From positions 1 through 64,000 of the forward strand of contig JAOAEE010000027.1 in NCBI GenBank assembly GCA_026416955.1: a stretch of DNA of 64,000 nucleotides, written 5' to 3'. Positions 46,817 to 52,733 of this stretch are shown here, one piece after another. The position numbers and the translations under genes were made by a program. The stretch's first letter is position 1; each line of letters begins with the position of its first letter. Below the pieces are notes generated by a model. It was not told the DNA's origin. It ran no database searches and saw only the letters and a list, made by a program, of their open reading frames with translations. Source of the stretch: Ignavibacteria bacterium. GTDB taxonomy: Bacteria; Bacteroidota; Ignavibacteria; Kapaibacteriales; UBA2268.

Positions 46817-49012
46817 TTAATACTTAACAAAATGTGCGCGATAATTCTTATTTAATGTCTTAACATTTAAAAGATAAACCCCAGAAGCTATATTATTTAT
46901 TTGCACCATTGGATTGGAGGTTGAAAGAATCAAATTTCCAAAAATGTCGTAAACATTTATTTCAAGAATTGGGTCAGAAGAAGTTACCAATAACCAATCC
47001 GTTGCTGGATTTGGAGTTATTGCAAATTTTGAAGATTCTAACTGTTCATCCACGGAAGTTACTAACTGAAGTAAACGAAGTACATCAAGTTTCCCCCAAC
47101 CAAAATTGTTGTTCGGGACTACACCAGTGTATGAATCCTTCCTTGCAGAAAGCTTCAACAAATTAATAATTTCATCCACTGACAAGTTAGGATTTTGTTC
47201 AAAAAGTAAAGCAATAGCTCCAGCAACTATTGGAGCAGACATACTTGTTCCGGACATACCATAGTAAATTCCGGATGGGTCAATGAAGGAAGAATCAATA
47301 TAATCCGGGCTTGTTGAACTCGATAAAGCAGAAAAGACAAGCATTCCTGGTGCTGTAATAATAGGTAAGATTCTCCCATCTCTACTTGGACCACGACTGC
47401 TGAAACCTGCTAATTCCCAAAGGTGATAAAACTGGCTCCAATCTTCGAATTGGCCTAATATATTTGTGAATTTGTTCTTCGATACATATGCTCCAACACT
47501 TATAATTTTCTTCCCATCAGCAGGAGAGCCAACTGTCATTGCATTGTTGGGTGGAAATCCTGGAAACCGAGCTGGTAATTGCTGCTGACTTTCAATTGGA
47601 ATAGAAGACCAAGAATCAAATTTACCATCTTTCTTAACAACAAAAACAATCGACCAAATATAGTCCTGAATAGGCAAATTCGATATTCCCTCATTAGAAA
47701 TTAATATCAAAATATTTTCGGAGTTGTTATATATTTCATTTGATATAGATACTAAACCTACAAGAGTATTGTTCGTATCGAAAATTTGAGCTTTATCCAC
47801 AACATTTTTTACAGAAAAACCTTTCTCTCCTAAAAATTTCTTACTATTGGGTGAATATATCCCCACATAAACAGAATCAAACACACCTACATCGGACCAA
47901 ATATCGGAACCAAAAAGAAAATAATCGGGGATATCTGGACATAATTCGGGAGCATAATCACAGAGATTATATGGATATAATAGCAATTCGTAACGTTTTC
48001 CTTGTTTTACTTCCCCACCGGTATGTATGAACATTTCACCTTCGTTACCTGCAGAAGCAACGATTGCACGTCCTTTCTTTTCGGAAGCTAAATTCGAAAG
48101 TGCTTTACTTAATAATCCCTCACCATCGTGCGAACCAAACACTAATCCTAAACTTAAATTGATAACGCAAGGTTTACCCAATTCATCAGCCTTGCGAAAA
48201 ATATAATTGCAAGCAGAAAGAATATCGGCATCAGAAAAAGACCCCGATTCATTTTTTTTAACTCCATTGACAATTACAAAATCCGCATTGGGAGCAATTC
48301 CCTTGAATTCGTTTTTTCCTTTTCCATTTCCACCAGCGATTCCAGCAACGTGGGTACCGTGACCATAAATATCCTTTTGTAAAACGCTATCTAAGCTGTT
48401 GTCTATCTCTTTTTTTGTGTATTCCCTACCCCAATCAAATCCATCTGGTGGTTTTGGTGAGACTGTTTCCGACATATCCCATAAATACAAAACCCGTGTC
48501 CCATTCTCATTGTTAAAATCGGGATGAAGCAAATCTATCCCAGTATCTAAAATTCCAATAATTACTCCTTTGCCAGTAAAAGAACGAGGCAAGTTTATTC
48601 CATTATGAGCAAAGCTTGCACGAACATTATTTCGAGCAGAATCAAGAGTAAGTTTATATTTCCTACCAAAAGAAATCCTGCTTACAGATTCGTTTGAAAT
48701 CAGCTCAGGTAATTTATCCAATGGGACTTTGACAGCAAAAATATTTCCACCATTAGATAAGATTTTATAATTTTCAAGGGTAAAGTTGTTCGAAGAACTT
48801 ACTTCAATTAGACAAGTTACAAAGATTTGGTTCATATTAACTTCGAAAGGATATCCAATTTGCTTGGCAACTAACACTGCATCTGTTTGTTTAATATTTT
48901 GAAAATTACTCAACAATTTTTTCGAAAATGCATCGAGTTTGCTAATATTTTCATTAGCAAACAAACTGAATGAGAAAACTATGAAGATAATACAAATAGT
49001 AAATCTTTTCAT
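46817..49012 (-). CDS. Secreted subtilisin-like (S8) peptidase with T9SS sorting domain
   Basis: A 731-residue secreted serine protease. After the signal peptide (ICIIFIVFSFSLFA) comes an inhibitor-I9-like propeptide (about 60-122, with CLIEV, GGNIFAVKV and SRISFGRKYKL), then the S8 domain with catalytic D156 (GILDTGID), H218 (YGHGTHVAGIAGG), oxyanion N323 (ASAGNEGE) and S590 (SGTSMSAP). A long insert lies between N323 and S590. The C-terminus (ITPNPATDW to IASGVYLLNV) is a T9SS sorting domain. It is the last gene of a five-gene leftward operon, 12 bases after a small lipoprotein gene that resembles its propeptide. Confidence 0.93.
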   Translation of the reverse strand: MKRFTICIIFIVFSFSLFANENISKLDAFSKKLLSNFQNIKQTDAVLVAKQIGYPFEVNMNQIFVTCLIEVSSSNNFTLENYKILSNGGNIFAVKVPLDKLPELISNESVSRISFGRKYKLTLDSARNNVRASFAHNGINLPRSFTGKGVIIGILDTGIDLLHPDFNNENGTRVLYLWDMSETVSPKPPDGFDWGREYTKKEIDNSLDSVLQKDIYGHGTHVAGIAGGNGKGKNEFKGIAPNADFVIVNGVKKNESGSFSDADILSACNYIFRKADELGKPCVINLSLGLVFGSHDGEGLLSKALSNLASEKKGRAIVASAGNEGEMFIHTGGEVKQGKRYELLLYPYNLCDYAPELCPDIPDYFLFGSDIWSDVGVFDSVYVGIYSPNSKKFLGEKGFSVKNVVDKAQIFDTNNTLVGLVSISNEIYNNSENILILISNEGISNLPIQDYIWSIVFVVKKDGKFDSWSSIPIESQQQLPARFPGFPPNNAMTVGSPADGKKIISVGAYVSKNKFTNILGQFEDWSQFYHLWELAGFSSRGPSRDGRILPIITAPGMLVFSALSSSTSPDYIDSSFIDPSGIYYGMSGTSMSAPIVAGAIALLFEQNPNLSVDEIINLLKLSARKDSYTGVVPNNNFGWGKLDVLRLLQLVTSVDEQLESSKFAITPNPATDWLLVTSSDPILEINVYDIFGNLILSTSNPMVQINNIASGVYLLNVKTLNKNYRAHFVKY

Positions 49013-49024
49013 ATATCACCTAAA

Positions 49025-49378
49025 TTATTTACTTTCTTTCAATTGATAGTCGTGCGAAAGACTTATCCTATGGATAAAATCGAAACGCGAAGCTTTGTGT
49101 AGCGACTCCACATCTCCTTCAACTATAATAATATTACCAGCGGAGGTAACAACCTTTAAACCAACCCGTTCAAGTTTATCCTTTATAATAAAATCCAAAT
49201 TTTTATACATTTCAATTACGCAGCGAATAGGTTTATTTGTTTTGGAGTATTCCGGACTTTTCATTACTAATTTTAATTTGGCATCAAACTTGTCTTCAAA
49301 AGTTTTCGAAACTTCTTTTTTTACGCAACTAAACAAAAAAAGTGAAACTATTCCTAATATTATATAAAAAAATCTCAT
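49025..49378 (-). CDS. Small lipoprotein resembling a stand-alone subtilase (I9) propeptide
   Basis: A 117-residue lipoprotein: the lipobox LFLFSC puts the lipid on C18, then a Lys-rich linker. Residues 50-113 follow the propeptide of the adjacent subtilase: RCVIEM matches TCLIEV, and the 33-residue block from GNI (81) to YQL (113) aligns without gaps to GNI (89) to YKL (121) of the protease, with ten identities by my count including GNI, RIS, Tyr and Leu. In subtilases such domains fold and inhibit the enzyme. I infer a membrane-anchored inhibitor or folding helper. The gene lies 12 bases upstream of the protease gene, in the same operon. Confidence 0.72.
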   Translation of the reverse strand: MRFFYIILGIVSLFLFSCVKKEVSKTFEDKFDAKLKLVMKSPEYSKTNKPIRCVIEMYKNLDFIIKDKLERVGLKVVTSAGNIIIVEGDVESLHKASRFDFIHRISLSHDYQLKESK

Positions 49379-49388
49379 AAAAAGACCT

Positions 49389-50804
49389 TTATTTTGCCAA
49401 TATTAAAAACTGGGTTCTTCGGTTCAACGCTCTACCTTCTTCTGTGTCGTTCGGAGCAATGGGTTGGGACATCCCAAAGCCACGCCAGCGTAGACGCTTG
49501 GGGTCGACACCTCTTTCAACAAGAGCATCATACACTGCCTTTGCTCTTCTTTCTGATAATCTTTGATTGTATTCAATTGTACCAACATTATCTGTATGAC
49601 CTTGAATTTCGAGCCGGAGTTTTGGTCGGGACATCATTTGGTCGACAATCTCATCGATAATTGCAAAAGATTCCGGTTTGATGTCCCACTTATCGAAATC
49701 AAATAGAATTGGCCTAACAAAAGTATCACCAGAATCTCGCCACAACTCGGAAGTATCGTAGAAGCCTTCTGCCCAAAGTGAGTCTTTGCGCCCGGGAATA
49801 TCCAAGTGGGAAAGAACACGGTGATAGCCCCAAAACTTGGGAGGCTTGTATGTTACAAGATAGTAGTTCCTGAGGCTCATATAAATATCCATAAAAATTC
49901 GCTTTAATTCATCTTTCGAGTATGCTTTGTAAAATTTCCCACCAGTGTTAAATGCTATTTCTTGAAGATTTTCATCTATTGAATAGCCGAATGCAACGGT
50001 AAATATGTGCACATTTAATTTTTTTGCAAGTGAAATTATCTGGCTCACTTTTACCCGGGAATAATTATCGTCTCCGTCCGAAAAAACAACTATTAAACGT
50101 GGAGCAAAGTCATCCGAAAAACTATTAAACATTTCAATGCTTTTGTAAATTGCGTCGAATAAACCGGAATATAAACCAAAACCTTGAGTTCTCTTTAACC
50201 TAAATTGCTCAATTAAAGTATTTTTATTCGTTTCGAAAGGGATTTTAACATCGAAATCTTTATTAAATGTACAAAAGGCAATTCTATCATTAGGATATTT
50301 TAGTGAAATGAACAACTCTGTACCTTCGAAAATTGCGTTTGTCACCCCACTCATCGACCCGCTATAATCAACAGTGAGCACAATATTATATGGAATAGAA
50401 TCAGAAGCCCCAAATTCACGAACCTTGAATTCTTTGATTGGGTTGTGACGAATATTATATACTTTTCCTAAATATTCTTCAAGGAAATTAAAATAAATGT
50501 GTTGTCCTTTTTTATATGGCTCTGCCATTTGAGAAACAAAATATCCACTATCGTCGTAAACTCTGGTATATAATTTAACGGTATCGGGGTACTTACTAAT
50601 GTCAATCCTCCAAATATCATAACGAAGCTTGTTGGGATTGACCGAATCAATAGGCTTAACCCCACCAAGGAAAATTGTAGAATAATTACTATCGGGTGTA
50701 TCCCATACTTCGTTTTGTAAAGCAAAATCTCTTGGTCTTTTTGTTGTTGAACAGGATAGAAAGATGATAATAAAAAAAGTAAAAAGAAACCTTGGTATTT
50801 TCAT
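49389..50804 (-). CDS. Lipoprotein with von Willebrand A domain and C-terminal OmpA domain (second copy)
   Basis: A 471-residue paralogue of 21109-22485. The lipobox is IIIFLSC; a beta-rich region extends to about 145, then the vWA domain has MIDAS DYSGS (LTVDYSGSMSG) and LIVVFSDGDDNYS, and the OmpA domain (about 360-470) shows EIQGHTDNVGTIEYN, RAKAVYDALVERGVD and GFGMSQPIAPNDTEEG. It would bridge outer membrane and peptidoglycan and bind a partner through the vWA metal site. It sits 10 bases upstream of the propeptide-like lipoprotein gene and 47 bases after the biotin carrier gene. Confidence 0.88.
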   Translation of the reverse strand: MKIPRFLFTFFIIIFLSCSTTKRPRDFALQNEVWDTPDSNYSTIFLGGVKPIDSVNPNKLRYDIWRIDISKYPDTVKLYTRVYDDSGYFVSQMAEPYKKGQHIYFNFLEEYLGKVYNIRHNPIKEFKVREFGASDSIPYNIVLTVDYSGSMSGVTNAIFEGTELFISLKYPNDRIAFCTFNKDFDVKIPFETNKNTLIEQFRLKRTQGFGLYSGLFDAIYKSIEMFNSFSDDFAPRLIVVFSDGDDNYSRVKVSQIISLAKKLNVHIFTVAFGYSIDENLQEIAFNTGGKFYKAYSKDELKRIFMDIYMSLRNYYLVTYKPPKFWGYHRVLSHLDIPGRKDSLWAEGFYDTSELWRDSGDTFVRPILFDFDKWDIKPESFAIIDEIVDQMMSRPKLRLEIQGHTDNVGTIEYNQRLSERRAKAVYDALVERGVDPKRLRWRGFGMSQPIAPNDTEEGRALNRRTQFLILAK

Positions 50805-51380: not shown

Positions 51381-52733
51381 CTATAAAATTTCTGAATAAA
51401 GGTAAAGAAACATTGCTATAATAGAAACACAATCATTTAAATCTTTTGGGTCAATTTTGTCGGGAGTATCTTTATGGGAATGGTGAAACCAGAAATACTT
51501 TCCTTTGTCATCTGTTCCTAATGAGCCACCGGGATAACCTAATTTCATCATCGGAGAAATGTCGACCCCACCACCACCTTTTTGTATTTCAACATTTGGA
51601 TAAAACTTGGAGAAATAATTTTTAAAATCAACTATTTTTTCCCAAAGTGTGTCGGGTCCGGTAAATCCTATCCTATTTGGGGGAAAAATTCCCGAATCGA
51701 ACTCGAACAATAATTTATGGTTTTCGTATTTATGTAATTCTGCGTATTTTTTCCCACCTTCTAAACCATTTTCCTCGTTCACCCAAAAAACAAGTCTTAA
51801 TGTCCTTTTGGGTCTAATACCAAGTTCTTTAAATGTTTTCAAAACATACCACGAAGCAACACAACCTCCTGCATCATCGTGTGCACCACTACCAGCATCC
51901 CACGAATCTATATGACCACCAAAAGCAATTATTTCATTTGGAAAAACAGAGCCCCGAATCTGGGCAATTACATTACGCGAAGGAGAAAAACCCTCGTCTC
52001 GTGTCAATATTTTTAAAAACAATTTAGGAACAATCCCTCGCCTTTGAAACCGTTCTAAAAGCAAAGCGTCTTCTTCGGTAATTGAAGCAAAAGGTATTTT
52101 AGTAACAGTATCCTCGTAATGCATTACCCCAGTATGCGGATTATTTAAAGACATTGGAGACACTGGGCGACACAACGCAGCAACAGCACCGTATTGAGCT
52201 GCTTTTACAGCGCCCAACCAACGATATTGAACAGTCTTTCCATAACCTTCGTACGGTGGGTTATACACAACTATTTTCCCCTTGACACTCCCTTTATTTT
52301 TTTCTAAGTCCTCGAAACTATTTACAACAATTACTTCGGCTAAAATTCCAGTATCGGGTGTGGAAACGCTCCCTCCATATGCCATTATTGGTAATACTTT
52401 TCGCCTTGGGTAAACTATTTCGCAATCTTCGTGAACCCTAACCCACTTTGGAACCATTACTTGTTCGGACCAAACACTATCGTATCCTTCCAATCGTAAT
52501 TTATTTTCAATCCAATCCACTGATTTCTCTAAATTCTCGCTTCCGCTCAAACGAGGTCCAAAGTTATCACACAATTCTGCAAGAGTGTTCCAAGCATTGT
52601 AATTTCTATGGGTATGGTCGTATATTCTTTGCAAATTCGAAAGAATAATATCAACAAAATTTCCATCTTTAGAAAAAAGGAAAGTAGAAAAAGCTAAAAA
52701 TAGCACCAAAAATATCTTCAAAAACCTTATCAT
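51381..52733 (-). CDS. Exported M28-family zinc peptidase (carboxypeptidase Q-like)
   Basis: A 450-residue secreted metallopeptidase with a signal peptide (FLVLFLAFSTFLFS). A PA domain insert (about 110-230) precedes the M28 core with zinc ligands His in GGHIDSWDAG, bridging Asp in GAHDDAGG, catalytic Glu in WVNEENG, Asp in FEFDSG and a final His in WFHHSHKDTPD. The match is to aminopeptidase/carboxypeptidase Q-like M28 enzymes that finish the breakdown of peptides. It heads the five-gene leftward operon that ends with the secreted subtilase, and is divergent from the channel gene. Confidence 0.9.
   Translation of the reverse strand: MIRFLKIFLVLFLAFSTFLFSKDGNFVDIILSNLQRIYDHTHRNYNAWNTLAELCDNFGPRLSGSENLEKSVDWIENKLRLEGYDSVWSEQVMVPKWVRVHEDCEIVYPRRKVLPIMAYGGSVSTPDTGILAEVIVVNSFEDLEKNKGSVKGKIVVYNPPYEGYGKTVQYRWLGAVKAAQYGAVAALCRPVSPMSLNNPHTGVMHYEDTVTKIPFASITEEDALLLERFQRRGIVPKLFLKILTRDEGFSPSRNVIAQIRGSVFPNEIIAFGGHIDSWDAGSGAHDDAGGCVASWYVLKTFKELGIRPKRTLRLVFWVNEENGLEGGKKYAELHKYENHKLLFEFDSGIFPPNRIGFTGPDTLWEKIVDFKNYFSKFYPNVEIQKGGGGVDISPMMKLGYPGGSLGTDDKGKYFWFHHSHKDTPDKIDPKDLNDCVSIIAMFLYLYSEIL

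Follow-up and report, generated by a model that had tools for sequence, protein, structure and literature searches.

A small lipoprotein encoded directly upstream of a subtilase in an Ignavibacteria bacterium of the Kapaibacteriales is related to the N-terminal prodomain of that protease and may inhibit it in trans. Both genes lie in the window, that is, the whole stretch of 64,000 nucleotides analysed here (contig JAOAEE010000027.1 of assembly GCA_026416955.1). We suspect, with a probability of roughly 0.7, that the lipoprotein is a trans-acting, I9-like inhibitor of the neighbouring subtilase, a cargo of the type IX secretion system (T9SS), and that it guards the cell envelope. In support are homology, the predicted fold, a C-terminus at the processing site, a helix-capping position kept in most relatives, the pairing of the genes, a recurrent origin, and the matching of compartments between partners; we infer the lipidation, location, binding, inhibitory action and purpose of the lipoprotein. 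The features of the pair are as follows.

49025..49378, minus strand: free-standing prodomain-like lipoprotein, 117 aa (open reading frame with stop, profile homology, AlphaFold model)
49325..49378, minus strand: putative lipoprotein signal peptide, residues 1-18, with lipobox LFSC and Cys18 (sequence, motif only)
49058..49228, minus strand: predicted I9-type b-a-b-b-a-b core, lipoprotein residues 51-107 (AlphaFold model, PDB matches)
49028..49057, minus strand: lipoprotein C-terminal tail (residues 108-117), which lines up with the prodomain end where autoprocessing takes place (alignment; low predicted local distance difference test score, pLDDT, in the free model)
46817..49012, minus strand: T9SS subtilase, 731 aa, triad D156, H218 and S590 (open reading frame, domain search, alignment)
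48647..48958, minus strand: cis prodomain of the subtilase, about residues 19-122 (profile and model; mature start by analogy with residue 97 of CspB chain B)
47063..48646, minus strand: S8 catalytic region, about residues 123-650 (domain search, structure match)
46820..47020, minus strand: T9SS type A sorting domain of the subtilase (TIGR04183, PF18962)

The original prediction pointed to an ungapped stretch in which residues 81-113 of the lipoprotein face residues 89-121 of the protease, and a recount from the sequences returns the same ten identities. A single-sequence BLASTP search of the lipoprotein against 13 proteases gave an E-value of 5e-4, which is weak taken alone. The predicted relationship to the prodomain is borne out by profile-profile comparison with hhalign, in which 12 lipoproteins aligned with 11 prodomains (Prob 95.4, E 1.8e-8) and 47 stand-alone relatives, here called free copies, aligned with 47 prodomains at E 1.5e-17 and a score of 95.6; the 60 column shuffles reached 12.1 at most, and the reversed control 12.3. 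With recent or divergent members removed, the remaining 34 free copies matched their prodomains at 6e-16. A profile built from the lipoproteins only, run against six frames of 123 whole genomes, retrieves free copies and subtilase prodomains, and in the reciprocal search the prodomain profile retrieves free copies. Common to both is an N-terminal K-x-D motif before the core, with the Lys present in 46/47 free copies and 35/47 prodomains. One point needs correction, as the lipoprotein is not a recent copy of the propeptide of its neighbouring protease: that protease's prodomain is only 8th of 47 in similarity to it, and the free copy is a member of an old family. That family is unnamed in Pfam and NCBIfam. 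The window protein and ten relatives had no match to Pfam Inhibitor_I9 (PF05922) at E up to 1 (hmmscan), the free copies matched no Pfam or NCBIfam model, and sequence searches of the PDB with lipoprotein or prodomain profiles returned chance matches only (e.g., myoglobin).

An I9-type fold, as originally proposed, is predicted with confidence by the AlphaFold model of the lipoprotein (pLDDT 87). In a Foldseek search of this model against 350,542 PDB chains, the first ten rows were all S8 propeptides, the entries being the CspB prodomain, pro-subtilisin E, ProN-Tk-SP, Tk-propeptides, the PCSK9 prodomain and the BPN' prosegment. VIA-align 2 placed S8 propeptides at Z 7-10 and POIA1, a free inhibitor, at Z 5.9. 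Z values of this order can mean a common arrangement; the weight of the structural evidence rests on the ranking and on the independent homology. The nearest structures belong to the Clostridium CspB/CspBA germination subtilases. The lipoprotein matches chain A (prodomain) and the protease model matches chain B (Z 46.7) of the same crystal, 4i0w, a processed prodomain-protease complex of CspB, and residue 123 of the protease lies opposite CspB residue 97. In CspB, however, the prodomain is made within the precursor of the protease and has no gene of its own, and there is neither a lipid anchor nor a T9SS.

Free copies stop 4-15 residues (median 7) past strand 4, the expected cleavage junction of the prodomain. 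In a sister species (G002), for instance, the lipoprotein ends in ...HDYQLK, and the prodomain reads ...RRYRLH followed by LDSARS. The lipoprotein is thus a gene product of its own that ends near the prodomain cleavage position, as do stand-alone I9 inhibitors. In subtilisin, a Glu (E69 of BPN') caps helices of the catalytic domain (PMC6993865). The corresponding position is Glu in 31/47 free copies and 30/47 prodomains, compared with a background of 7.8%; in the window lipoprotein it is Ser. Within the genus, free copies average 71% identity to one another and catalytic domains 62%; cis prodomains, in which helix 1 is shortened and mostly missing in the alignment, average 34%. Given that the free copy has changed least and the cis prodomain evolves fast, we take the free copy to be the constrained form. 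It is predicted from the models to fold on its own, and stronger inhibition has been reported for propeptides able to do so (PMC10580911).

The pairing of the two genes is conserved, as the original prediction would have it: in Bacteroidota, two orphans aside, all the checked copies adjoin a co-directional S8 gene. Neither a fold unlike I9 nor a pair confined to this genome, two outcomes that would have spoken against the prediction, was thus encountered. Within the host order, the pair occurs in nine genera of three families (genomes G000-G004, G009, G011, G021, G026, G035, G043, G059, G064, G087, G114 and G115), and the free-copy profiles place free copies in 22 Bacteroidota genera overall. 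The free-copy profile alone matched 35 of 395 Bacteroidota genomes. This search is an unbiased test of adjacency, since its hits were found without reference to a protease, and all 19 of the new small open reading frames that were checked (13 further genera) have a co-directional S8 gene as neighbour, with most of the frames 5' of it and several 3'; the weak hits G335, G407, G068 and G478:C9 lie outside the checked set. A further 80 named S8 loci were picked by protease, so that adjacency there is biased. They yielded free copies in KSB1, Calditrichota, Ignavibacteriales, Balneolales and Bacteroidetes, and leaderless free copies in Streptomyces, Paractinoplanes and Bradyrhizobium. KSB1 and Calditrichota have the same layout as the window pair.

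The idea that the gene always lies upstream of the protease was rejected, given that seven checked copies are 3' of it (e.g., the f12 genomes and locus L119). Genome G115 has two consecutive free copies, and at locus L103 (KSB1) the whole pair is present twice in tandem. All paired proteases retain a prodomain of their own. The orphan free copies are L053 (G063) and L007 (G008); in G063 the gene still lies beside uvrC as in paired relatives, and the protease was therefore probably lost. At L161 (4648-4986, minus strand; contig titled Kocuria polaris), the free copy is opposite in strand to the nearby S8 gene, the only case that is not co-directional.

Partners also match in compartment. Copies from Bacteroidota, KSB1 and Calditrichota begin with a lipobox-like sequence, and their partners are exported; in the actinobacterial and Bradyrhizobium pairs, both copy and partner lack leaders. 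This matching of lipid-anchored with exported and leaderless with leaderless proteins suits a direct partner. Leaderless copies beside leaderless S8 proteases were seen at L144, L151, L152, L127 and L129 (Streptomyces and relatives, Paractinoplanes, Bradyrhizobium), L144 being from Streptomyces xantholiticus and L129 from Bradyrhizobium sp. RP6. In a Sandarakinorhabdus metagenome-assembled genome (L124, 3090-3680), a possible lipoprotein leader (LLPVSC) could be read from an upstream GTG start, and the partner protease has no leader. The T9SS subtilases L030 (G028) and L055 (G100) carry a lipobox directly before their own prodomain. Judged by sequence, these may be regarded as a cis form of the same design.

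From the perspective of evolution, a single origin of the free copies was rejected by the approximately unbiased test (p 0.0022) on a joint tree of 94 domains, which has only 93 columns and many open forks. The main group holds 34/47 free copies together (Shimodaira-Hasegawa-like approximate likelihood ratio test support, 97), and some groups of free copies and prodomains pair by lineage. The idea that free copies arise anew, each by duplication from the protease beside it, was rejected in general, given that the own prodomain has a median rank of 5 of 47 (8 in the window). It holds for G011, a young duplication in which the free copy is 34% identical to its own prodomain (E 7e-15), and is suggested for L119; on the tree the free copies of G011 and L119 look like separate events. 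Distances between free copies correlate with those between catalytic domains (r 0.50, permutation p 2e-4, 47 pairs), which shared ancestry also explains.

If the lipoprotein is a trans-acting inhibitor, the cis prodomain would provide folding and one-time latency, and a separate, self-folding copy would be anchored by lipid on one of the envelope membranes. Its beta sheet would dock on the catalytic domain of the subtilase and its C-terminal tail would be placed, product-like, in the active-site cleft. A protease that matures too early, or that comes back to the cell, could in this way be kept in check.

A precedent within T9SS bacteria is provided by the potempins of Tannerella forsythia. The genes of these small lipoproteins sit immediately 5' of those for T9SS KLIKK proteases, and potempins are reported to inhibit the protease with which they are co-expressed (PMC4404884, PMC7296668). 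The window pair has the same arrangement of a small lipoprotein gene (lipobox by motif) directly upstream of a T9SS protease, and this precedent favours inhibition in trans. The six potempin genes have no significant similarity among one another. They are partnered by KLIKK proteases of the metallo- and serine types, whereas the window subtilase ends otherwise, in ...YRAHFVKY. Published potempin folds are not known to be I9-like.

Stand-alone I9-like inhibitors are known in eukaryotes, to which the listed examples are all confined. To our knowledge these are not lipid-anchored. They comprise POIA1, yeast Pbi2, Arabidopsis SPI-1, TgMIC5 and Plasmodium SUB1-ProM (PMC6993865; MEROPS I9). Like the lipoprotein, they are small free proteins with a prodomain fold, and POIA1 is among its structural matches; SUB1-ProM also occurs beside subtilase genes (PMC6993865). 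They differ in having no T9SS partner, and the lipoprotein in having no Pfam Inhibitor_I9 match. A third parallel is the prcB-prcA-prtP (dentilisin) operon of Treponema denticola, in which a lipoprotein gene lies upstream of a subtilisin-family gene, PrcB is needed for PrtP, and the N-terminal part of PrtP is acylated (PMC8167434). PrcB, however, has a mass of 23 kDa and is said to lack homologs other than those in oral treponemes (PMC8167434); no similarity to a prodomain is reported for it, and there is no T9SS. The original prediction held that a membrane-tethered propeptide acting on a T9SS cargo had not been described. That is too strong, as the potempins and the eukaryotic stand-alone inhibitors are published; their combination was not found described. 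The literature searched, which leaves most subscription journals outside it, contained no bacterial stand-alone propeptide family and no free I9 inhibitors in bacteria or at the T9SS.

Several observations weigh against inhibition in trans. It rests on sequence, predicted folds and analogy, and the shared match to 4i0w stands in for a model of the complex. The Foldseek E-values are modest (best 1.3e-3) and the Z values middling, and the fold by itself is common, with NikR and ribosomal S6 also among the structural matches. The tail of the window lipoprotein extends three residues beyond the junction and differs from the cis tail, two orphan copies (G008, G063) have no adjacent protease, and for inhibition by potempins PMC7296668 refers to data awaiting publication.

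Among other explanations, the lipoprotein could be a steric chaperone that assists folding of the protease in the periplasm, ahead of export by the T9SS, much as the membrane-anchored foldase Lif helps type II-secreted lipases fold. Subtilase prodomains do act as chaperones as well as inhibitors (PMC10580911, PMC6993865), the dependence of PrtP on PrcB (PMC8167434) offers a parallel, and a second copy could take over folding from a cis prodomain that evolves fast and in the alignment lacks most of helix 1. However, folding help in trans is less needed, and not obviously needed at all, because each paired protease retains a prodomain, and the potempins, the nearest precedent in organisation, are described as inhibitors. 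We consider a chaperone unlikely. The sorting domain of T9SS type A cargo gives a route to surface anchoring, and this argues against the lipoprotein as a docking site that captures the secreted protease and keeps it on the cell surface, where inhibition would be a side effect or would not occur. The lipid anchor and short linker would suit such a site, and PrcB and PrcA were proposed as anchors of PrtP (PMC8167434), but the leaderless pairs of Actinomycetota and Bradyrhizobium have no membrane anchor, and we think docking distinctly improbable. That the lipoprotein is a relic without function, left when the 5' end of the protease gene was duplicated in tandem, is hardly credible: partial duplication did occur in the origin of free copies, with G011 a young example, but the lipoprotein is intact with its lipobox, is better conserved within the genus than any other part of the pair, and is retained beside the protease across phyla.

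Inhibition in trans thus remains our preferred reading, and on balance it is also probable, if somewhat less so, that the pairs form a bacterial class of protease and regulator, in which a copy of the prodomain was split off by duplication more than once, lipid-anchored if the partner is exported and leaderless if not. This would be the first bacterial family of stand-alone propeptide inhibitors, and it would protect cells from their subtilases, especially those exported by the T9SS, in a general, immunity-like way. It offers an explanation, open to testing, of why T9SS bacteria are not harmed by strong subtilases that cross the periplasm. It also suggests that several bacterial lineages use, with a membrane anchor, the strategy of stand-alone propeptides known from fungi, plants and apicomplexans. 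Given that the family is unnamed in Pfam and NCBIfam, it may explain many hypothetical lipoproteins beside S8 genes. The leaderless Streptomyces and Bradyrhizobium pairs would be convenient laboratory systems.

The host genome, whose named close relatives are Candidatus Kapabacteria (e.g., Candidatus Kapaibacterium sp. Ch6), encodes 7 S8 proteins, 4 PorV-family genes and 88 sorting-domain matches, and the latter two indicate that T9SS secretion is in use. With its Por_Secre_tail domain in a genome that has T9SS machinery, the subtilase qualifies as T9SS type A cargo; domain E-values are 2.5e-45 for Peptidase_S8 and 8e-7 for the sorting tail (hmmscan, Pfam). It is the sole S8 gene of the genome with a recognisable free copy (one match to the lipoprotein profile).

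Both open reading frames of the pair are on the minus strand, with 12 bp between the lipoprotein and the downstream subtilase. The putative lipobox, LFSC at residues 15-18, follows a hydrophobic leader and has an invariant Cys, as judged by motif rather than by a trained predictor; one genus member (G004) has Phe at -1. Only 12 residues link Cys18 to the K-x-D motif. The sequence after the lipobox, CVKKEV, has no acidic run right behind the Cys, and does not decide between the periplasmic and surface sides of the membrane. Upstream lies one further lipoprotein gene.

49389..50804, minus strand: VWA-OmpA lipoprotein gene (open reading frame, domain search)

This gene stops 10 bp short of the lipoprotein open reading frame and has the same position in 5/5 genus members (L002-L005). 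The VWA-OmpA lipoprotein, free copy and subtilase genes probably form a three-gene operon in this genus; the VWA-OmpA neighbour was not seen in the other genera examined. Not far upstream of the pair there is also a co-directional gene for an exported-looking M28 family peptidase (51381-52733, minus strand).
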